Source: Candidatus Woesebacteria bacterium
GTDB lineage: Bacteria; Patescibacteriota; Microgenomatia; UBA8517
Assembly (NCBI GenBank): GCA_026394855.1
Contig: JAPLZT010000066.1
Location: 1-21,613 of the forward strand
Length of the DNA stretch: 21,613 nt
Direction of reading: 5' to 3'
How positions within the stretch are numbered: position 1 is the first letter of the stretch; every line of letters begins with the position of its first letter. Of the stretch, positions 4,371-13,463 are shown piece after piece. The position numbers and the translations under genes were made by a program. The notes beneath the pieces were generated by a model. That model made no database searches. It saw only the letters and a list, made by a program, of their open reading frames with translations, and was not told where the DNA came from.

Positions 4371-4991
4371 TTAATTAGTATATCTTCTGACAAGGCCTAC
4401 AACTTTGCCCTGAATCCTTACGTTTTTGACAAAAATAGGAGACATTTTGGCGTTGGCAGGTTCCAATCTTACCCGGGTAGCCTCTCTAAAGAATCTTTTT
4501 AGAGTTGCCATGCCATTGTCAAGAAGAGCCACCACAATATCGCCGTTATTGGCAGTTTCTTCCTGTTCTACAACTACATAATCTCCATCTCTAATCTGTT
4601 CTTCAATCATGCTTTCTCCCCTTACTTGCAGAACATAGACCCTTTTTTTCTGCGAGTAAAAATTAGGAGGGATAGACATTGTTGCGTTTGGATCGGTATA
4701 GGGCTCAATTGGAGCTCCGGCTGCAATAAATCCCAATATCGGCACACTTATTCCCTGAGGATTAAAGTTAAGTTCAACATCTTTAACTTCTATGCTTCTT
4801 ACCTTTCCTCCTTTTCTTTTAATAAGACCTTTAGTAACAAGCGCTTGAAGATGTTCATGAACCGTTGCAAGAGAAGATACGCCTATGGCGTCGGCAATTT
4901 CCCGCAGTGTTGGAGCGCTGCCTTTAGACTGAATATGCTGCTTAATGAAATCCAGTATTTGTGCTTGTCTTTTGTAAACTATAAGTGCCAT
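4371..4991 (-). CDS. lexA: LexA repressor, SOS regulator
   Basis: 206 residues, the normal length. Seen: an N-terminal winged helix (about residues 5-68) with the recognition region PTLREIADAIGVSSLATVHE, then the autocleavage site in ILGFIAAGAP (Ala91-Gly92), catalytic Ser127 in VRGESMIEEQIRDGDYV and catalytic Lys165 in MATLKRFFRE. This is a complete LexA, able in principle to repress and to self-cleave when RecA is activated. The ATG at 4991 is only 5 nt after a TATAAA -10 box with a consensus TTGACA -35 seventeen bases further up. The mRNA is therefore probably leaderless and no Shine-Dalgarno is needed. It is divergent from uvrB across a 59-nt gap, so self-repression and repression of uvrB from a shared operator are likely (inference). 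Confidence 0.96.
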   Translation of the reverse strand: MALIVYKRQAQILDFIKQHIQSKGSAPTLREIADAIGVSSLATVHEHLQALVTKGLIKRKGGKVRSIEVKDVELNFNPQGISVPILGFIAAGAPIEPYTDPNATMSIPPNFYSQKKRVYVLQVRGESMIEEQIRDGDYVVVEQEETANNGDIVVALLDNGMATLKRFFREATRVRLEPANAKMSPIFVKNVRIQGKVVGLVRRYTN

Positions 4992-4996
4992 ACTTA

Positions 4997-5025
4997 TTTA
5001 TACGAATGTTTACCGAAGTTGTCAA
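4997..5025 (-). promoter_or_regulatory. lexA promoter (consensus -35/-10, leaderless)
   Basis: On the minus strand TTGACA (5025-5020), a 17-nt spacer, then TATAAA (5002-4997). The lexA ATG begins 5 nt after the -10, so the expected +1 falls at or next to the start codon. The spacer holds GGTAAACATTCG, a possible but degenerate LexA site. A second TTGACC lies 8 nt further upstream (5033-5028), giving a short direct repeat. I could not confirm an SOS box by comparison with other promoters. Confidence 0.7.
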
Positions 5026-5035
5026 TAGGTCAATC

Positions 5036-5044
5036 TGATACAAT
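5036..5044 (+). promoter_or_regulatory. Probable uvrB promoter (extended -10)
   Basis: TG-A-TACAAT at 5036-5044 fits an extended -10 element. No good -35 at 16-18 nt is visible, which is normal for extended -10 promoters. The predicted +1, about 7 nt downstream, is at 5051, where the homologous UvrB reading begins. The element lies back to back with the lexA promoter, so one bound repressor could block both. Confidence 0.45.
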
Positions 5045-5050
5045 ATAAAT

Positions 5051-8000
5051 ATATTTAAACTCAAATCAAAATATATACCGATTCCTGATCAACGAAATGC
5101 TATTAATAAACTGACAGATAATGTCTTGCGTGGAGAAAAATATCAAACCTTGTTAGGAGTAACCGGCAGCGGAAAAAGTCTTTCTTATAATGAACGTGTT
5201 TTGGTATATGAAAAAGGTAATAATTCTTTTAAAGCATTTTTTATAGAAATAGGAAAACTAGTAGAAGACCCAACTTCAGTAAATAAAGATTTGTATGTCC
5301 CAAGTATCAATCCAAAGACTGGACAGCAAGAATTAAAACCCATTATCCAGCTGATTAGGCACGAGACACCTAAAAAGATGTATTCGGTTACAACCTCGTG
5401 CGGTAAACAGGTAGATGTTACGGGAGACCATAATTTTTGGGTTATTAGAAACGGACTATTTAAACTGGTAAAAACTACAGAGATCACCAAAAATGATTAT
5501 CTACCCACTCCTAGAATATTAGAAATTAAAGATCTGGCTGTTATTAATACTATTTATCTCAAAGAATACTTGAAACGAGATGCATACTTTAAATTTAATC
5601 AAATTAAAAATGATATTAAAAAAGAAGAACTCAGGAAATTATTAGGATATAAAAAATACTATCGAATAATAAATAAAAATGAAGGGATTAGTATTCGTTG
5701 TATAGATAGTCTGAATTTATCTAATAAGACACTAAATAATATAAAAATATATAAAAAACAAGGGATACCGTTAAAAAATGAAATACATATAGACAAAAAC
5801 TTTTTATCACTTCTTGGAATATATATAGCAGAAGGACACAGCGAAAAGAACTATTTATTAATAAGTGTTCATGAAAATGCTTTTCAGAAATTATTTAAAA
5901 ACTATTTAAATATTTTGGATATAAAATATAAAGAAAGAAATTTTAATTTGGGAGATTTTCAGATTAGTAATTGCTTATTATCTGATCTTTTTTCAAGCAT
6001 GTGCGGGAATAAGTCCAGTAACAAAGTTCTTCCACCTTGGTTTATGCAATTAGATTTAAAACAACTTTCGTATATATTATCAGCATACTTTAGTGGGGAT
6101 GGGACTGTAACAGAAAATGAAATTCAGGCTTGTACGGCAAGCTCAAAATTAGCATGCGATCTAAGTTATGCACTTATGCGTTATGGAATAAATGTTAGGA
6201 TACGAAATAAAATTAAATATGCCACAAATACTATAAATAAGGTTAAGAGACAATATTATGAAATAGTAATTTCTGGTAAAGAGAATCTTACTAAATTTCA
6301 AAAATATATTGGTTTTATTCTAGAACGAAAACAATTTAAGCTTTCCCAAATAATAAAATTGAATTCAAATACAAATGTCGATTTAACACCCATAGACGGA
6401 TATATATTTAAGCAGTTAAGAAAAAATATTGGCTTTACTCATGAATCGTTATCCAAGTTGGTTGGTTGTACAAGATCGTATTTTTCCATGATTGAAGATG
6501 GCTCCAGAAAACCCTCGAATAAATTATTAAGAAAGATTGTAAATATATTTGAAGAAAATACTGATTCGCCGCTAATATTATCTGATCTTAATAAACTTAA
6601 AGTCTTGACAGAAATATTTTGTACTAAAGTTAAAGAAATCAAATTAATTAAACCTACTTCTGATTATGTTTATGATATAGCAGTTAAAGACAACGAAACT
6701 TTTTTAGCTGGAATGGGCGGAATATATGTCCACAATACATTTACAGTTGCTAACGTAATTGAGAAGCTGCAAAGGCCAACTTTAATTATTTCTCATAATA
6801 AGACACTAGCGGGACAGCTGTTTCAGGAAATGAGAGATTTATTTCCCGAAAACGCGGTTTCATATTTCGTTTCCTATTATGATTACTACCAGCCCGAAAG
6901 TTACATTCCTTCAACCGATACCTACATAGAAAAAGACTCTGATATCAATGAACTCATAGATAAATTAAGATTAGCTGCAACCACGAATCTTCTTACAAGA
7001 AAGGATGTAATTGTTGTAGCTTCAGTTTCCTGCATTTATAACATAGGTTCCCCAAGAGAATATGGACATTTTGTTTTTGAATTCTCACAAGGGATGAAAA
7101 TTTCAAGACATCAAATAATAGACAGGCTTTTGGATCTGCAGTATGAAAGAAGCGAATTCGGATTCCATAGAGGAACTTTCAGAATACGGGGAGAGATAGT
7201 AGATATTTACCCTGCCTATCAGGATGAAGCTTTTAGGATAGAACTTTCGGAGGATAAAATTAAGAAAGTAGAAATAATTAACCCCGTTTTCGGTCAAACA
7301 ATTGTAAATTCTAAATTATCAATTAAAAATTATGTTTTATATCCTGCCAAGCATTTCATGACAGACCCGACTAAAAATAAAGAAATAATCTCTCAAATAG
7401 AAAAAGATATGATTAATCAATACAACTTTTTTAAAAAGCAGGGAAAACTTCTTGAAGCTCAAAGAATAAAGCAAAAAGTAACATACGACCTTGAAATGAT
7501 TCAGGAATTAGGTTATGTCAAAGGCATAGAAAACTATTCAAGATATTTTGATGGAAGAGCCCCCGGAGAAGCACCTTACTCCTTACTTGATTATTTTAAT
7601 GAACCTTTTGGTAAAGACTGGCTGGTAATTGCGGATGAATCTCATATGACTTTTCCCCAAGTAAGAGGCATGTATGCGGGAGATTTTTCCAGAAAATCTA
7701 CATTAATTGATTATGGCTTCAGGCTTCCTTCGGCAATAGACAATAGACCTCTAAAGTTTGATGAATTTATGCGGAAGATTCCCAATTTTATTGCCCTTTC
7801 GGCAACTCCAAGTGAATGGGAACTTTCGATGTCGGGTAAATGCGTTGTCGAACAACTTGTGCGACCAACAGGAATACCTGACCCTTTAGTTGAAATAAGG
7901 CCAATAGGAAACCAAGTTGCAGACTGTATAAAAGAAATTAAAAAGCAGGTTGCAAAACACCAAAGAACTTTAGTTACAACATTAACCAAAAAAACAGCAG

Positions 8001-8629
8001 AAGATTTATCTGCCTTCTTAGAAGAAAAAGGGTTAAAAGTTCATTATCTTCATTCTGATGTTAAAACACTTGATAGGGGAGATATCTTGGATAGTTTAAG
8101 AAAAGGAAAATATGACGTTCTTGTCGGAATTAATCTCTTGAGGGAAGGTTTGGATCTTCCGGAGGTATCTTTAGTTGCCATACTAGACGCAGATAAAGAA
8201 GGATTCCTCCGATCCGATGTAACTCTGATTCAAACGATGGGTAGGGCAGCCAGACACGTTGAGGGACGTGTAATTATGTATGCCGATACTTTAACCGGAA
8301 GCATGCGACGTGCCTTGAGCGAAGTTGCCAGGCGGAGAGCTTATCAGATTAAATATAATAAAATCCATAACATAACTCCTAAAAGCATACAAAAACCAAT
8401 CAGAGAAAGACTTATTGAAAATGAAGAAGAACAAGAATTGGAAAAAGTATTTGGTAAGAAAGAATCAACTTTCCAAAAACTACCGCATATAGATCTTGAC
8501 GGATTAACACCAATGGACAAAAAAAGGCTAATTATAAGATTAAAAAGAGAGATGGTTCTTGCTGCCCAAGATCTAAACTTCGAACTTGCTGCTGAAATTC
8601 GTGATAAAATACGCGAAATTGCTATATGA
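5051..8629 (+). CDS. uvrB: Excinuclease ABC subunit UvrB, interrupted by an intein
   Basis: UvrB is the damage-verifying helicase-like subunit of nucleotide excision repair. The extein is about 672 residues, the normal size, once the 520-residue intein (5177-6736) is removed. Seen: Walker A GVTGSGK before the intein and TFTVANV after it, YVSYYDYYQPE-like β-hairpin residues (SYYDYYQPESYIP), VASVSCIYNIGSPREY, the DESH box, SRKSTLIDYGFRLPSA, NLLREGLDLPEV, QTMGRAARH and a C-terminal UVR motif (AQDLNFELAAEIRDKI). Start: the first ATG/GTG/TTG in frame is TTG 5126, but homology extends upstream (FKLKSKYIPIPDQRNAI) to a stop at 5036, and the codon aligning with Met1 is ATA at 5051. The start could therefore be a rare AUA or a sequence error. 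The stop overlaps the ATG of the next gene (ATGA). Confidence 0.93.
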   Translation: MFKLKSKYIPIPDQRNAINKLTDNVLRGEKYQTLLGVTGSGKSLSYNERVLVYEKGNNSFKAFFIEIGKLVEDPTSVNKDLYVPSINPKTGQQELKPIIQLIRHETPKKMYSVTTSCGKQVDVTGDHNFWVIRNGLFKLVKTTEITKNDYLPTPRILEIKDLAVINTIYLKEYLKRDAYFKFNQIKNDIKKEELRKLLGYKKYYRIINKNEGISIRCIDSLNLSNKTLNNIKIYKKQGIPLKNEIHIDKNFLSLLGIYIAEGHSEKNYLLISVHENAFQKLFKNYLNILDIKYKERNFNLGDFQISNCLLSDLFSSMCGNKSSNKVLPPWFMQLDLKQLSYILSAYFSGDGTVTENEIQACTASSKLACDLSYALMRYGINVRIRNKIKYATNTINKVKRQYYEIVISGKENLTKFQKYIGFILERKQFKLSQIIKLNSNTNVDLTPIDGYIFKQLRKNIGFTHESLSKLVGCTRSYFSMIEDGSRKPSNKLLRKIVNIFEENTDSPLILSDLNKLKVLTEIFCTKVKEIKLIKPTSDYVYDIAVKDNETFLAGMGGIYVHNTFTVANVIEKLQRPTLIISHNKTLAGQLFQEMRDLFPENAVSYFVSYYDYYQPESYIPSTDTYIEKDSDINELIDKLRLAATTNLLTRKDVIVVASVSCIYNIGSPREYGHFVFEFSQGMKISRHQIIDRLLDLQYERSEFGFHRGTFRIRGEIVDIYPAYQDEAFRIELSEDKIKKVEIINPVFGQTIVNSKLSIKNYVLYPAKHFMTDPTKNKEIISQIEKDMINQYNFFKKQGKLLEAQRIKQKVTYDLEMIQELGYVKGIENYSRYFDGRAPGEAPYSLLDYFNEPFGKDWLVIADESHMTFPQVRGMYAGDFSRKSTLIDYGFRLPSAIDNRPLKFDEFMRKIPNFIALSATPSEWELSMSGKCVVEQLVRPTGIPDPLVEIRPIGNQVADCIKEIKKQVAKHQRTLVTTLTKKTAEDLSAFLEEKGLKVHYLHSDVKTLDRGDILDSLRKGKYDVLVGINLLREGLDLPEVSLVAILDADKEGFLRSDVTLIQTMGRAARHVEGRVIMYADTLTGSMRRALSEVARRRAYQIKYNKIHNITPKSIQKPIRERLIENEEEQELEKVFGKKESTFQKLPHIDLDGLTPMDKKRLIIRLKREMVLAAQDLNFELAAEIRDKIREIAI
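5177..6736 (+). mobile_element. Intein (LAGLIDADG homing endonuclease plus HTH) in UvrB
   Basis: 520 codons in frame within uvrB. Block A begins with Ser1 (SLSYNERVLVYEKG). Block B is VDVTGDHNFWVI with the Thr82-x-x-His85 pair. Two LAGLIDADG-type helices follow: LLGIYIAEG (about 212-220, acidic Glu219) and ILSAYFSGDG (about 300-309, acidic Asp308). An XRE-like helix-turn-helix lies at about 408-460 (LRKNIGFTHESLSKLVGC then SYFSMIEDGSRKPS). Block F is YVYDIAVKDNETFLAGMGG. Block G is IYVHN, ending His-Asn, and the +1 extein residue is Thr. All residues needed for splicing and cutting look intact, so it should splice to restore GVTGSGK-TFTVANV. By eye it is more AT-rich than the extein, in keeping with lateral arrival. 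Confidence 0.93.
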
Positions 8630-8991
8630 CAGAACATAAATATATAAGTGTGTATACAAGGGAACATTTAGCCGAAAGGTTGGTTATGTTTAAGGATGGT
8701 TATAAGGACAATATCCCTGAAAATATTATTCATAGTGCGGATCCAGATAATAAATATAAAATTAGAACCGCTTGATTTGTCGGCTTGGCTGCCGATTTAT
8801 GGGTATCTAAAGACAATGGAATATTGCCCACTTCCGTAATAGAAGAAGTTAACATTTTCCTTAATTGGTATACAGATGACTTCGGAAAAAGACCTGGATA
8901 CCCGGTAATTAACACAAAGGAAGATATTGAAAAAGGAAACGCAATAATTAATAAGGTCCTGGAAAGTTTGGGAACTAGTAAAAAAACTTGA
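8626..8991 (+). pseudogene. Small unknown gene interrupted by an in-frame UGA
   Basis: The ATG at 8626 overlaps the uvrB stop (ATGA), the usual sign of a coupled downstream gene. The frame reads MTEHKYISVYTREHLAERL and on to codon 49, meets TGA at 8773-8775, then continues in the same frame as protein-like sequence (FVGLAADLWVSKDNGI, then TSVIEEVNIFLNWYTDDFG and so on) to TGA 8989-8991. With the inner stop read through, the product would be 121 residues. The likeliest explanation is a Trp (TGG) to stop mutation in an accessory gene. The second half has its own TTG at 8785 but no clear ribosome-binding site. I do not recognise the family. A small stem (8779-8784 with 8791-8796) lies just after the UGA, so recoding is a remote alternative. 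Confidence 0.6.
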
Positions 8992-9026
8992 ATAGATTCG
9001 GCTTCTTCGGATTCCCTTAGAGATGA

Positions 9027-9061
9027 TATAATATGAACATCCACCGGATGAAACCGGCGGG
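9027..9061 (+). repeat. uvrA-type promoter/leader hairpin, copy 1
   Basis: An extended -10 (TG 9024-9025, TATAAT 9027-9032) is followed 8 nt later by a 21-nt GC-rich element at 9041-9061: CCACCGG, loop ATGAAA, CCGGCGGG, then TTTT. It differs from the uvrA leader copy by one base. Both arms pair except for a conserved A-C mismatch. A 5' hairpin at +1 and a terminator of the upstream gene are both possible readings. Here no start codon follows at the uvrA spacing; the next gene starts 41 nt later from its own -10. Confidence 0.7.
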
Positions 9062-9088
9062 TTTTATAAAATTTTTATTTTGTAGATG

Positions 9089-9094
9089 TATAAT
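9089..9094 (+). promoter_or_regulatory. -10 box of the HEPN-like gene (leaderless)
   Basis: A perfect TATAAT ends 7 nt before the ATG at 9102, placing the expected +1 at or beside the start codon. There is no Shine-Dalgarno. A -35 is not evident. Confidence 0.55.
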
Positions 9095-9101
9095 TCTATA
9101 A

Positions 9102-9545
9102 ATGGCAACAGGTAAAGAACTTCAGAAAATTACACAGGCTAGATTAAAAACAGTTAAAATATTAATTAAAAATAAAGATTGGGAGGGTGCGGCATATATG
9201 ATGGGATATGTTTTAGAATGCTCTCTCAAAGCAGCTATTTGTTCAACGCTTAAATTGTCTATATATCCAGAGAAAGTTAAAGAAGAAAATATTGCAAAAT
9301 ATTTTATGACTCATAATTTTCTCCAATTAGTGGTCGTGTCTGGTTTACAGGGAGTATTCAGCTCTGAAGGACCTGCAAAAGCTTGGCAGAATTGGTCTGT
9401 ATTTACGCTAGAGTATCAAGGGAATTGGACAGAAATGAGATACGACCCTAATCGCATATGGGATGAATTTAAGCTTAAAAAACTCTTCAAAGCATTAGTA
9501 ACCTCAAGAAATGCTATCATTAAGGAGGTAAGAAAAAAATGGTAG
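9102..9545 (+). CDS. HEPN-domain-like protein, first gene of a coupled pair
   Basis: 147 residues, soluble, mostly helical. Seen: a HEPN-like pattern of helix LKTVKILIKNKDWEGAAYMM, then GYVLECSLKAAICSTL, a central THNFLQLVVVSGL and a final helix with SRNAIIKEVRKKW. Known: HEPN proteins include RNase toxins of toxin-antitoxin and defence systems as well as inactive partners; active ones carry R-x4-6-H, which I cannot find here, so it may be non-catalytic or a divergent member. A strong AAGGAGGT (9522-9529) inside its end serves the next gene, whose ATG overlaps it by 7 nt, so the two are made together. The pair lies in the cargo region between uvrB and uvrA. The toxin-antitoxin role is inference only. 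Confidence 0.65.
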   Translation: MATGKELQKITQARLKTVKILIKNKDWEGAAYMMGYVLECSLKAAICSTLKLSIYPEKVKEENIAKYFMTHNFLQLVVVSGLQGVFSSEGPAKAWQNWSVFTLEYQGNWTEMRYDPNRIWDEFKLKKLFKALVTSRNAIIKEVRKKW

Positions 9546-9892
9546 ATAAATTTAAAAAGATTCTCAGCAGGATAATTGAAGAGAAAGGGACAGTTACTGT
9601 TTTTGCCGTCTTAAAAATGGATGAGTTTGTTGATAAATGGACGGTCATATTTTCTGCTCCTTGGTCAATACCAACAACACTAGAAACAGATTTTGAATAT
9701 ATTAGAAAACTTTTAAGAGAAGAATTAACTGAAGAAGAACGGTCGTTAATTGCGAGAATTGGAATTTTTCCTAAAGACGAACATCTCATAAACCTAATAC
9801 TTCAACTTAAATCGGAAACGACAATTACTGAAGATACAAAGTTAAACGGAAATGTTATCCACGAGGGATATGTCTTGGCTTCTAATGGATAA
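9539..9892 (+). CDS. Unknown partner of the HEPN-like protein
   Basis: 117 residues, no signal peptide or membrane segment. I do not recognise the family. Visible: an N-terminal helix (FKKILSRIIEEKG), two β-strands TVTVFAVLKM and KWTVIFSAPW, an acidic helix (REELTEEERSLIARIG) and a C-terminal stretch ending VIHEGYVLASNG. It lacks the GSxxxG...D-x-D motif of the MNT nucleotidyltransferases that usually accompany HEPN proteins. The ATG at 9539 lies 9 nt after a very strong AAGGAGGT and overlaps the upstream gene by 7 nt, so expression is tightly coupled. Directly after its stop, in the same frame, comes the uvrB 3' fragment. A small partner or antitoxin role is plausible from context alone. Confidence 0.6.
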   Translation: MVDKFKKILSRIIEEKGTVTVFAVLKMDEFVDKWTVIFSAPWSIPTTLETDFEYIRKLLREELTEEERSLIARIGIFPKDEHLINLILQLKSETTITEDTKLNGNVIHEGYVLASNG

Positions 9893-9904
9893 AGGACTTA
9901 TTCC

Positions 9905-9970
9905 GCTCAAGATCTCAATTTCGAACTCGCTGCTGAAATTAGAGACAAAATTAAGAAAATAGAGTTATAA
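9905..9970 (+). pseudogene. Fragment of a second uvrB 3' end
   Basis: The frame reads AQDLNFELAAEIRDKI then KKIEL and TAA. The first 16 codons encode exactly the residues found at the end of intact uvrB (8564-8611). By hand count the two 48-nt stretches differ at 8 bases, all silent. That pattern points to a copy which evolved as a working uvrB, for example in a relative, rather than a fresh local duplication. No similarity is seen upstream of 9905. The stop codon overlaps a TATAAT serving the next gene. Confidence 0.85.
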
Positions 9971-9971
9971 T
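9966..9971 (+). promoter_or_regulatory. -10 box upstream of the small Cys-containing gene
   Basis: TATAAT sits across the stop codon of the uvrB fragment and ends 8 nt before the ATG at 9980, matching the leaderless arrangement seen elsewhere in the window. Confidence 0.5.
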
Positions 9972-9979
9972 CATCGCAC

Positions 9980-10192
9980 ATGGAAAATAGTAACAAATGT
10001 ACTTATACAATTGAGTGCATGGGCGAAAAGTATGTATGTGATGGAATAGACTGTTTACGGAATAAGGTTTTTACTGAGGGTCTTCCACGAGTTGCAAGTA
10101 GAATATTTAATATTGATATTATAAAAACTAGATCTTCTGCAAAAGTTATTAACGGGAATTGTATACCTCCTATAAAAACGACTACCCAATAA
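9980..10192 (+). CDS. Small unknown protein with five Cys
   Basis: 70 residues: MENSNKCTYTIECMGEKYV, then CDGIDCLRNKV, and a C-terminal half with INGNCIPP. The first four Cys (7, 13, 20, 25) could bind a metal or form disulfides, but the spacing is not a motif I know. No signal peptide or membrane helix. It has a probable leaderless start from TATAAT at 9966. It lies exactly between the uvrB 3' fragment and the uvrA 5' fragment, so it looks like the middle gene of an alternative uvrB-gene-uvrA junction. Coding status rests on the start context and position; length alone is weak evidence. Confidence 0.45.
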   Translation: MENSNKCTYTIECMGEKYVCDGIDCLRNKVFTEGLPRVASRIFNIDIIKTRSSAKVINGNCIPPIKTTTQ

Positions 10193-10204
10193 ACATTTTA
10201 ATAC

Positions 10205-10276
10205 TATAATCGCACTACCACCGGGTGGAACCGGCGGGTTTTTCTTATGCAAGACTATATTAAAATAAGAGTTTAA
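10205..10276 (+). pseudogene. Fragment of a second uvrA promoter, leader and 5' end
   Basis: TATAAT (10205-10210), 7 nt, the 21-nt hairpin element (10218-10238), 8 nt, then ATG (10247) with codons for MQDYIKIRV and TAA. Intact uvrA has the same order and spacing (-10, 7 nt, element, 8 nt, ATG) and starts MQDYLKIRG. The 21-nt element differs from the uvrA one at a single base. This is copy 2 of the leader, with nine uvrA-like codons attached. A functional leader peptide is possible but less likely than a recombination remnant. Confidence 0.85.
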
Positions 10277-10278
10277 AT

Positions 10279-10299
10279 GTACCACCCGCGAGGTGGTAC
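10279..10299. repeat. Perfect 8-bp inverted repeat (hairpin)
   Basis: GTACCACC (10279-10286), loop CGCGA, GGTGGTAC (10292-10299). It lies 30 nt beyond the 3' end of the minus-strand gene at 10329-10610 and may terminate that transcript, though no long T-run follows on either strand. Confidence 0.6.
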
Positions 10300-10328
10300 G
10301 TTAGTGACAGTAAAAAATGATTGTAAAA

Positions 10329-10610
10329 TTAAAGTCGTTCTCTGAAACCACCCGCTGCTCTTTCAAGAATTTTAATATGATCCTCAAAATCAATGATTGT
10401 AAATTCTGTACCAAAATGAATATTGTTACCTTTTCTTGCAAAAAAACCAGCGAAGTATGTGTATAAATGTTTAGTGATGCGTTTCTCAGGAAACATCAAA
10501 TTTTGCGAAACATCGGTTAGATTTAATTCAGCTTTAGGATTATTATTAAAAGTATCAAATAGATATCTCCCTAATTTTATTTGTTCTGAGTCTGAACTTT
10601 TTATACCCAC
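10329..10610 (-). CDS. Small unknown protein, possibly winged-helix-like
   Basis: 93 residues from a GTG start (10610-10608); an in-frame TAA nine bases upstream rules out a longer form. On the minus strand TAAAAT (10622-10617) lies 6 nt before the start, so the mRNA may be leaderless. The sequence has helices IKLGRYLFDTFNNN and LTDVSQNLMFPEKRITKHLY, then FFARKGNNIHFGTEFTIIDF, which could be a small helix-turn-helix with a wing, but I do not recognise the family. It is the only minus-strand gene between uvrB and uvrA and sits between two copies of the uvrA leader. Confidence 0.5.
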   Translation of the reverse strand: MGIKSSDSEQIKLGRYLFDTFNNNPKAELNLTDVSQNLMFPEKRITKHLYTYFAGFFARKGNNIHFGTEFTIIDFEDHIKILERAAGGFRERL

Positions 10611-10655
10611 GGCGATATTTTACACTTTATCTACGGCGGAATCCAATTAAAATGA

Positions 10656-10689
10656 TATACTTTCTTATCCACCGGATGGAACCGGCGGG
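10656..10689 (+). promoter_or_regulatory. uvrA promoter and leader hairpin (copy 3)
   Basis: Extended -10 (TG 10653-10654, TATACT 10656-10661), 7 nt, then CCACCGG, loop ATGGAA, CCGGCGGG at 10669-10689 and 8 nt to the uvrA ATG. The mRNA would start at about 10668, so the hairpin forms its extreme 5' end. It could protect the 5' end or hinder ribosome entry. Two further copies lie upstream. Confidence 0.65.
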
Positions 10690-10697
10690 ATTTTGAC

Positions 10698-13391
10698 ATG
10701 CAAGACTATCTAAAAATAAGAGGAGCTAGACAGCATAACCTCAAAAACATTGATTTAGATATTCCCAAGAACAAGTTGGTTGTTCTTACGGGAGTTTCCG
10801 GCAGTGGAAAAAGTTCTTTAGCTTTTGACACTATATATGCTGAAGGTCAAAGAAGGTACGTCGAATCATTATCAACGTATGCCCGACAGTTTCTAGGCAT
10901 TATGGAAAAGCCTGACTGTGATCATATAGAAGGCCTCTCTCCCGCAATTTCAATTGATCAAAAGACAACTTCCAGAAATCCCCGTTCAACAGTTGGAACC
11001 GTGACCGAAATATACGATTATTTAAGGCTTCTTTTTGCCCGTATTGGTCACCCTCATTGTCCCATCTGCGGAAGAGAAATATCCCATCAAACTCTGGATC
11101 AAATTGTTTCTAAATCTATTGAAATAATTACAAAAGAAACCAAAAAAAACAGCAAAGGCTGGTTTTTAATTCTCTCTCCTGTTGTTTCTGACAGAAAAGG
11201 AGAATTTTCTTCTCTCTTTGATAACCTGAAAGCCAAAGGATATAAACAGGTAAGGGTTGATGGGATAATTAAAGATATTTCGGAAGATTTCGTACTAATA
11301 AAGACAAATAAACATACGATAGAAGCAGTTGTAGATAGAATAAGCGGAAAAGGTGCCGAATTAAAATCACGTCTGACAGAGGCAGTTCAACAAGCTCTCA
11401 GCTTATCTGAGGGACTGGTTATTTTAGCCCAAATATTAGATTCCGCATTTGAAATTCCGGAATTTCCCAAAAGATTTCAAGACACTTTGTTCTCGGAGAA
11501 ATTTGCTTGTCCTAAAGACAATATTCAAATACAAGAAATTGAGCCCAGAAGCTTTTCATTTAATTCTCCTCATGGAGCCTGTCTTAAGTGTTCCGGTTTA
11601 GGAAAACTTCTAAAGGTAGAAAAAAATGTACTTTTTGCCGAAGAACTAACCATAACTGAAGGAGGAATTTTACCTTTTTCAAGCATGTTTGAGCACGAAA
11701 CCAAGTATTCAAATATGTTCTTAGCATTCTGTGCGGATAACGGTATTGATTCCAAATCACCAATTAATCAATTAACAAGTCAACAAATCAACCTACTGTT
11801 AATCAAAATCATTCCTGATCTTGAAAGAAGGTACAGAGAATCGACTTCGGAGTACGTTAAGAGGGAAATCGAGAAATATATGAGGGAAACTATTTGTGAA
11901 ATGTGTAATGGCGCAAGACTTAAAAAAGAATCTTTGGGAGTAACCATAAATGGACTGTCAATTAGTGAAGTGACGGGAAAGTCTATTTCGGAAACTATCA
12001 AATGGATTGGAAGTCTGACTCTAAGTCTAAGAGAAAAAGAAGTTTCGAAATTAATAATTAATGAAATAGTAACAAGACTGAATTTTCTTACATCCGTAGG
12101 GCTTGAATATATCACTTTAGGAAGAGAGGCAGGAACTCTTTCGGGAGGAGAAGCTCAAAGAATTAGACTTGCTTCTCAAATTGGTTCGGGTCTTACAGGA
12201 GTTTTATATGTTCTGGATGAACCCACAATCGGCCTTCATCAAAAAGACAACCAGAAATTAATAGATACCTTAAAAAAGCTTAGGGATTTGGGAAACACTG
12301 TAATTGTTGTTGAGCATGACAGAGAAATGATAAACCAGGCAGACTGGGTCATTGATTTTGGTCCGGGCGCCGGAGATAGCGGAGGGTATGTTGTGGGGAC
12401 TGGTACACCTGGTGAAATTAAGAAAAATTCAAAATCCATAACCGGACAATTCTTAAGCGGTAAAAGAAAAATTACAGTTCCCAGCCACAGTTCACTGTCC
12501 ACTGTTCACAGTTCACTTTCCCTTTATGGCTGTTCTCAATACAATCTAAAAAATATTGATGTTGAGTTTCCTTTAGGAAAACTTGTTGTTGTTACCGGAG
12601 TATCAGGAAGCGGGAAGTCAACTTTACTGGTAGAAACTTTATATCCGGCTTTATTTAGTTATATTAATCAAGGATTTAGGGGACTAACCGGAAAATTCAA
12701 AAGACTTGAAGGAAAAGAAAACATAGATAAAGTTATATTAATAGATCAATCCCCTATAGGAAGAACCCCAAGAAGCAATCCCGCAACATATACGGGCCTT
12801 TTTGATCCGATTAGGGAGGTATTCTCTTCTTTGCGGGATTCACGAGCGCAAGGCTTCAAAAAAGCAAGATTTTCATTTAATTTAAAAGGCGGACGCTGTG
12901 AAGCTTGCGAAGGACAGGGGCAGACAAAAATAGAGATGCAGTTTATGAGCGATATCTGGATAACCTGCGATATCTGCAAGGGAAAAAGGTATAATACGCA
13001 AACTTTGGAAGTTGAATTCAGAGGCAAAAACATTTCGGATATTCTAGCTTTAACAGTAAAAGAAGGGGTTGAATTTTTCCACGGTCATTCAATGATTCTT
13101 TCCAAACTGGAAACCCTTCAGGAAGTAGGACTTGGTTATATTAAACTGGGCCAGCCCGCGACTACCCTTTCGGGAGGAGAAGCTCAAAGAGTTAAACTGG
13201 CAACGGAACTTTCCAAAAAAGCGACCGGTAAAACTGTCTATATTTTAGATGAACCAACAACCGGACTTCATTTTGCCGATGTGGAAAAACTTTTAAAAGT
13301 CCTAAGACTTCTTGTAGATAGAGGAAACAGTGTCTTTTTAATAGAACATAATTTAGACGTAATTAAAAACGCAGATAGAAATTGTTGCTAA
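10698..13391 (+). CDS. uvrA: Excinuclease ABC subunit UvrA, C-terminus lost by frameshift
   Basis: 897 residues. UvrA is the dimeric ATPase that finds DNA damage and loads UvrB. Seen: start [18 protein letters not shown], Walker [35 protein letters not shown], first zinc module with Cys271, Asp274 (instead of Cys), Cys295 and Cys298, first ABC signature [16 protein letters not shown] and [10 protein letters not shown], second Walker [31 protein letters not shown], second zinc module CEAC...CDIC, second [26 protein letters not shown] and the H-loop [10 protein letters not shown]. After NAD the frame runs into RNCC and TAA, whereas homologues go on with a segment like IDLGPEGG and a tail. That tail survives in another frame (13378-13449). 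A Ser-rich linker with a 21-bp repeat precedes the second half. Function may be reduced rather than lost. Confidence 0.93.
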
Positions 13392-13449
13392 CGGATGCAT
13401 TAAAGACGTAAAGAAATCCAAAAACTCATATACAGCCAGATATCTTTGA
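13378..13449 (+). pseudogene. Frame-displaced UvrA C-terminal tail
   Basis: In a different frame from uvrA, 13378-13449 reads [20 protein letters not shown] then RYL and TGA, the expected UvrA tail (compare the first half's own [18 protein letters not shown]). Only one base separates the NAD codons from it, while about 14 codons ([14 protein letters not shown] in the first half) should intervene. A deletion of about 41 bp is inferred. The old stop overlaps a TTG used by the longest reading of the next gene. Confidence 0.85.
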
Positions 13450-13463
13450 AATATACTTCTATT

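Follow-up and report, generated by a model that had tools for sequence, protein, structure and literature searches.

A hairpin leader of uvrA and the turnover of uvrB-uvrA interval contents in a Candidatus Woesebacteria genome and its relatives

Introduction

Between the DNA-repair genes uvrB and uvrA of a Candidatus Woesebacteria bacterium, a tiny and uncultured organism, lie three copies of a short hairpin element together with several small genes. The stretch analysed (contig JAPLZT010000066.1 of assembly GCA_026394855.1, positions 1 to 21,613 of the forward strand, hereafter the window) raises the question of what this repeated 21-nt element is, and of how its copies and the small genes came to be stacked between two genes that are neighbours in all the relatives examined. 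How genes are gained and lost where mobile elements are not obvious is an open question in very small, mostly uncultured bacteria, and a site at which pieces of exchanged junctions survive catches that process while it happens and tells which homology arms to search for. Here we report that the element is a leader of uvrA and that the contents of the uvrB-uvrA interval turn over, and we weigh how the stack in this genome may have arisen.

The element is a leader of uvrA

The element reads CCACCGG-N6-CCGGCGGG, and its three copies, at 9041, 10218 and 10669, fit this pattern with 0 mismatches, exactly where the initial annotation of the window had placed them. There are 0 further copies elsewhere in the genome (835,613 bases, at most 2 mismatches), and with up to 3 mismatches the window gives 6 matches (the three sites, both strands), where 100 shuffles give 0.03 on average. 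The one-base differences that had been reported between copies 1 and 3 and between copies 2 and 3 are present as well, both in the loop, and each hairpin follows the -10 box ascribed to it after 7-8 nt (Table 1). The stem is imperfect, its pair 3 being an A.C mismatch. The uvrA-like start that had been described after copy 2 keeps the 8-nt spacing, and its coding likeness extends over eight codons (MQDYIKIR) rather than nine.

Relatives were taken from 50 genomes of the family, 47 of which have a UvrA match at the chosen threshold. With at most one mismatch the pattern occurs in four of the 50, namely the source genome and three others (G029, G035, G044) with one copy each directly before uvrA, and all 6 matches fall within uvrB-uvrA intervals. 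Regions upstream of uvrA were taken from 45 relatives, a genome with a partial match (G014) being left out, and 18 uvrA leaders from these and the source genome were aligned into a covariance model (R1), which was searched with strict filters and at most 128-150 candidates scored per genome. R1 gave 21 hits in 19/50 family genomes, all of them again inside uvrB-uvrA intervals; 18 of the hits are the model's own members, which leaves copies 1 and 2 and one weak hit in G047 (expectation value, E, 0.38) as independent. In the source genome R1 finds the three copies and nothing more at E<=10, and this genome (G000) is alone among the 50 in having more than one leader copy. Because all matches lie in uvrB-uvrA intervals, the 21-nt element is a uvrA leader and not a general leader. 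This is the identity that the initial annotation had given it, and the contrary finding which that annotation had named, the same element before many unrelated genes, was looked for: every match stands between uvrB and uvrA.

In many relatives uvrA is preceded by a -10 box, a hairpin and a short spacer, the stem letters differing between them. A scan for a -10 box plus hairpin that is independent of the stem letters reached a score of at least 12 at 26 of the 46 uvrA genes, where two hits (G007 and G018) look like chance, and gave zero for ptsI (0/20), eno (0/21), gpmI (0/17), dedA (0/9), lexA (0/21), the transglutaminase gene (0/21), uvrC (0/21) and gene 17108 (0/17). The same score was reached by uvrB in 1/21 cases, gene 16491 in 1/19, secG in 4/15, c11 in 2/10 and others in 7/105. 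The secG and c11 hits, the position of lexA next to uvrB and the T-rich sequence that follows the hairpin in several genomes would suit a general promoter leader, a terminator or a protein-binding operator (e.g. a LexA box) standing before many genes. The confinement of all model and pattern hits to uvrB-uvrA intervals, on which a general leader or terminator was rejected, and the loose-scan counts for lexA and uvrB themselves make this idea barely credible; a LexA operator was rejected as the principal interpretation, since half-site spacing (loop 4-6 nt across leaders) and stem sequence vary while the pairing stays.

At the level of the order, R1 matches none of the six order genomes fetched, of 8 loci with a HEPN-like gene (see below) or of 2 Levyibacteriota loci. 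By eye, a differently worded hairpin occupies the same place in three of the six (G055, G051, G053), a partial one precedes uvrA in G052 and none is clear in G050 and G054, while three loci from another family of the order (L173, L175, L177) have a hairpin with very different stem letters between the -10 box and uvrA. Within the family, a short uvrA-like or extra start lies between the leader and the true start of uvrA in two loci (L024 of G005 and L009 of G029), which looks like a duplication or split of the uvrA 5' end, and several genomes have a TTTGCGTGG-like stretch 3' of the hairpin, either in frame or out of frame with uvrA.

The leader as a probable RNA structure

Among the 18 leaders, C-G is replaced by U-A at two stem pairs (5/18 and 4/18 leaders) and G-C by C-G at a third (3/18), and one pair is non-Watson-Crick (G.U in 6/18, A.C in 11/18). 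The stem starts 6-9 nt past the -10 box, and its end lies 9 nt from the start codon in 16/18 leaders. Cells changed on both sides number 13 against 6.3 when shuffled, and the covariation score is 0.338 against 0.183, with 0/500 shuffles as high in either case. The compensating changes in the stem pairs and the fixed distance from stem to start point to a leader acting as RNA structure. It speaks against such a role that two of five covariation measures (pairs changed on both sides, further pair types) are not above shuffles, and that single-sequence folds lie mostly modestly below shuffles (z -0.39 to -4.06, 8 leaders).

The leader runs from the -10 box over 6-9 nt to a 17-21-nt hairpin, then 8-9 nt to the start codon. 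The hairpin begins close to where transcription is expected to start, and it would stand at the 5' terminus of the mRNA of uvrA. From its specificity, covariation and spacing we infer that this 5'-end hairpin most likely sets the mRNA life or the translation start of UvrA. Hairpins at the 5' terminus of mRNAs can act on mRNA life or translation, and the uvrA leader is similar to these in being short, stable, near the transcription start and before the start codon. Unlike that class, it is gene-specific in the family, with a fixed distance to the start, a conserved non-Watson-Crick pair and no Rfam family at cut-off (positions 8600-10900 gave 4 Rfam matches up to E 5, none at gathering score). 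A literature search gave, among the matches listed, nothing on this uvrA leader or on the uvrB-uvrA site. Being specific to uvrA, showing compensating changes and lacking an Rfam family, the hairpin leader is a candidate for a new point of control over DNA repair in this group.

An RNA thermometer is unlikely because the 3' arm stays paired when warmed, its mean pairing still being 0.67-1.00 at 55 C in 8 leaders. Classical masking of a Shine-Dalgarno (SD) sequence is not clearly supported: SD-like motifs are rare (before 8/260 open reading frames, ORFs, across 21 genomes whose starts were called crudely), and yet 4/4 16S ends read have an intact anti-SD. The 16S gene of the source genome looks interrupted near its 3' end (locus L205, 3060-3200), and no anti-SD was found in that locus.

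Turnover of the interval and control junctions

In 46/46 genomes examined uvrB precedes uvrA, with a gap ranging from -3 to 3720 bp (<150 bp in 18/46 and 211-3720 bp in 28/46; the gap of G019, whose uvrB is broken, is an overestimate, and G014 stands outside the count). A UppP/BacA-like gene on the opposite strand occurs in 7 intervals and a type IV secretion system (T4SS) pilin-like gene in 4, one of each label being checked by Pfam and the rest assigned by eye; other contents are a nucleotidyltransferase, a Fic protein, a beta-propeller protein, a PD-(D/E)xK-like protein and unknowns. The 8 genera with at least two genomes examined differ outright in contents in three cases (g3, g8, g33), partly in two (g12, g27) and not in the remaining three (g6, g30, g34; empty or alike). 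In g3, a gap of 95 bp (G002) and one of 1431 bp (G003) have just their last 44 bp in common, at 91%, and this stretch is the leader. The turnover of contents with conserved ends, which the initial annotation had proposed as a thing to look for, is thus real; its description of the cargo as defence-like suits some of the genes, much of the cargo being ordinary (UppP/BacA, T4SS-type pilin, nucleotidyltransferase). No recombinase was found by Pfam in the 20 of 27 listed cargo ORFs scanned in other genomes, and no integrase, transposase or recombinase was seen among the window ORFs between uvrB and uvrA, which agrees with the earlier view that the site lacks a recombinase of its own.

The junctions of the surrounding syntenic block were compared in 21 genomes, picked for long contigs. 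Gaps above 300 bp were found at uvrB-uvrA in 12/21, at uvrA-transglutaminase in 6/21 and at lexA-uvrB in 5/21, and were rare or absent at ptsI-eno (0/21), transglutaminase-uvrC (0/21), eno-gpmI (0/17), uvrC-16491 (1/19), 16491-secG (0/15), c11-ptsI (1/15), secG-17108 (0/14), dedA-lexA (1/6) and the convergent gpmI-lexA (0/11). The loading of uvrB-uvrA gives a Fisher p of 0.058 against lexA-uvrB, 0.12 against uvrA-transglutaminase and 5e-5 against a junction with 0/21. It is the most loaded junction compared, not clearly above its two neighbours, and the name of hotspot given to it earlier has partial support, a hotspot in the strict sense being a possibility. Since uvrA has its own promoter, the boundary is one between transcription units, where insertion would harm least.

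One could ask whether permissiveness is all there is to it, an insertion between two transcription units doing no harm and short pieces being joined there illegitimately, with the leaders as passengers and with no homology-driven capture. The two neighbouring junctions that are also loaded agree with this, as do the co-directional junctions from ptsI-eno to secG-17108 in the above list, which are mostly unloaded. It is improbable, in our opinion, in view of the scraps described in the next section, both of which come from exactly the flanking genes in correct order and strand, and of the leader, which stands at its native distance from the uvrA scrap; moreover, the unloaded convergent gpmI-lexA junction means that not every boundary is permissive.

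Scraps of uvrB and uvrA

Two remnants that the initial annotation had recognised in the 2068-bp interval of the source genome, uvrB' and uvrA', proved to be real. The match of uvrB' scores 81 against a maximum of 25 in 100 shuffles, and uvrA' agrees with the local uvrA in 23/25 nt. When 32 uvrB-uvrA intervals, including this one, were scored against their shuffles, both kinds of scrap were seen in the source genome only; a uvrB-tail-like stretch lay slightly above shuffles in G016 (25 vs 22) and G042 (32 vs 25), which we take as chance. Compared with the local uvrB, uvrB' has 16/63 bases changed and only 4/21 residues (17/21 kept), a pattern that neutral decay equalled in 1/20,000 simulations, transition bias included. 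Since bases changed while residues were kept beyond what neutral decay gives, the codons of uvrB' indicate divergence while it was part of a working uvrB. Over 54 nt, uvrB' shares 42 with the local uvrB and 44 with the best other genera (G045, G018).

These values bear directly on the main rival explanation, a local origin, in which one or two tandem duplications of uvrB-uvrA were functional for long and were then deleted down to leaders, a uvrB tail and a uvrA head, the cargo arriving separately. That uvrA' is closest to the local uvrA, that the leaders differ by single loop bases and that a donor genome was not found among 328 genomes of the class all agree with it. The distance of uvrB' from the local uvrB is one between genera and was built up under purifying selection, so that a local origin needs both copies to have been functional for long, and none of the intervals examined showed a tandem uvrB-uvrA pair. 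Overall we regard it as possible but unlikely.

Origin of the stacked junctions

The explanation that we favour, at a probability of roughly 0.5, is a permissive boundary at which foreign uvrB-X-uvrA junctions were captured by homology and incompletely resolved. The uvrB-uvrA boundary would tolerate insertions, and the interval of the source genome would be the debris of at least two extra junctions, the stack consisting of uvrB-ORF A-leader 1, of uvrB'-ORF70-leader 2-uvrA' and of ORF93-leader 3-uvrA, and the HEPN-like gene pair, which looks mobile, standing between leader 1 and uvrB'. DNA of relatives with its own uvrB-X-uvrA stretch may have recombined at the uvrB tail and at the leader or head of uvrA, incomplete resolution leaving the junctions stacked rather than replaced by each other, and a recombinase belonging to the site would be unnecessary. 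From the scraps and their selection history, which are observed, we infer the donor, the uptake and the recombination steps.

Several observations weigh against capture from outside. The nearest relative of uvrA' is the local uvrA (23/25 nt, the best other genome having 21), in keeping with a source in the own lineage or in a close relative, and the sequences of leader copies 1-3 are almost the same. None of the other 31 intervals gave uvrB' or uvrA' debris of this strength. For ORF70 and ORF93 the 328 class genomes gave no convincing relatives (best E values in Table 1), and therefore a donor junction was not found. ORF70 is weakly similar to the contents of the G035 interval, 20/2000 shuffles being as good (uncorrected for other intervals), and the idea that the two are the same cargo was rejected, G035 being absent from the class search matches.

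An assembly artefact, in which the contig joins variant junctions of co-existing strains, would explain that the stack is in the source genome only, and the assembly has 159 contigs and a contamination of 3.2%. Such a join is very improbable given that synteny is unbroken on both sides (ptsI-eno-gpmI-lexA-uvrB ... uvrA-transglutaminase-uvrC), that the stretches common to the copies are only about 20 nt long and that the ends of uvrB' and uvrA' are short and internal.

It is tempting to extend the favoured explanation, capture by homology, to the family as a whole. The uvrB tail and uvrA leader would then be standing, family-wide homology arms, and small genes would travel as uvrB-tail/X/uvrA-leader units that pile up without a recombinase, making a recombinase-free cassette site in which the "repeat" is the working RNA leader of a DNA-repair gene; this extension we consider doubtful. 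In integron-type cassette arrays small genes are separated by repeated short hairpin-like elements, and here, too, small genes stand between repeated short hairpins. In contrast to such arrays, no integrase is found among the window ORFs, and the repeats are promoter-leaders of the flanking gene, with a -10 box and a uvrA head.

A further parallel may be the homologous-recombination hotspots free of mobile genetic elements (MGE), for which DNA-repair genes are noted among the flanks (PMC5635113, 2017). The present site resembles them in its variable contents between two conserved genes, the lack of a visible recombinase, the DNA-repair flanks and the homology present in relatives. It differs from the MGE-free hotspots in that the intervals are small and are compared between genera rather than strains, and in that the ends of uvrB and uvrA survive as recognisable debris.

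The HEPN-like gene pair

Of the two paired genes that follow leader 1, the first matches Pfam HEPN at E 0.022, which is under the curated cut-off, and 9/9 aligned homologues match PF05168 at E<=0.05 (best 1.5e-6). Homologues were found in 9/328 class genomes including the source genome, the others belonging to other families, with 28-54% identity. The pair is a scattered module and not a property of the family. A homologue of the partner stands beside the HEPN homologue in 6/8 other genomes (tblastn), and in the remaining 2/8 there is a similar-sized neighbour gene with 18-19% identity to the partner. The partner has no Pfam match up to E 1 and no NCBIfam, PADLOC or nucleotidyltransferase-like match; the earlier label of a HEPN pair fits the first gene, as HEPN-like, and fails for the second.

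Two-gene modules containing HEPN are toxin-antitoxin-like. The pair is similar to them as a small HEPN-like gene overlapping a small partner and scattered over distant families, and it departs from them in the lack of any of the above matches for the partner and in the RX4-6H motif, which was not seen by eye in the alignment, where H71 and R113-Y114 are among the invariant columns. The HEPN-like family has no solved-structure relatives at E<=1. A viral source was rejected both for the HEPN-like gene and for the leader, as no relative and no match was found among viral contigs (close relatives only). Some neighbours of HEPN homologues look, by eye, like recombinases or a DNA methyltransferase.

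Layout of the interval

Table 1. Features from uvrB to uvrA, in window coordinates
Feature	Position	Strand	Basis and remarks
uvrB, left flank, with intein at about 5177-6736	5126..8629	+	NCBIfam UvrB 7.1e-273, intein_Nterm 4.9e-10, intein_Cterm 6.3e-6; intein bounds by eye
ORF A, overlaps uvrB stop, in-frame TGA at 8773	8626..8991	+	Sequence; neither piece has a Pfam match above cut-off
Leader copy 1: -10 box 9027-9032, hairpin 9041-9061	9027..9061	+	R1 26.5 bits; no uvrA codons follow
HEPN-like gene, 147 aa	9102..9545	+	Pfam HEPN
Partner gene, 117 aa, overlaps HEPN-like gene, no assigned family	9539..9892	+	Kept beside HEPN homologue
uvrB', copy of last 22 uvrB codons	9905..9970	+	49/66 nt as in local uvrB
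ORF70, 70-aa cysteine-containing frame	9980..10192	+	Best other E 0.026 in 328 genomes
Leader copy 2: -10 box 10205-10210, hairpin 10218-10238	10205..10238	+	R1 43.3 bits, E 3.2e-6 for genome
uvrA', initial 25 nt of a uvrA gene, 8 nt past hairpin 2	10247..10271	+	23/25 nt as in uvrA
Perfect 8-bp inverted repeat GTACCACC-N5-GGTGGTAC, possible ORF93 terminator	10279..10299		Read from sequence
ORF93, 93 aa	10329..10610	-	Best other E 0.002 in 328 genomes; no Pfam match
Leader copy 3, uvrA's own: -10 box 10656-10661, hairpin 10669-10689	10656..10689	+	R1 51.7 bits, E 3.0e-8
uvrA, right flank, 897 aa	10698..13391	+	Shorter than relatives

ORF A looks like a decaying gene. The uvrB intein has homing-endonuclease-like motifs and sits in the P-loop, which in 45 relatives is uninterrupted in 40, cut by contig ends or short loci in 3 and odd in 2 (G019, G023); its putative homing endonuclease could promote exchange of the flanking DNA. 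The uvrB frame is open upstream of the TTG at 5126 (4981-5126), with UvrB-like residues and no close ATG, GTG or TTG, which makes the TTG a tentative start. At the other side, uvrA, with its 897 aa, compares with 925-1005 aa in the other 20 control genomes, and at 13360-13450 UvrA-like C-terminal residues continue, by eye, in another frame, through either decay or an assembly error.

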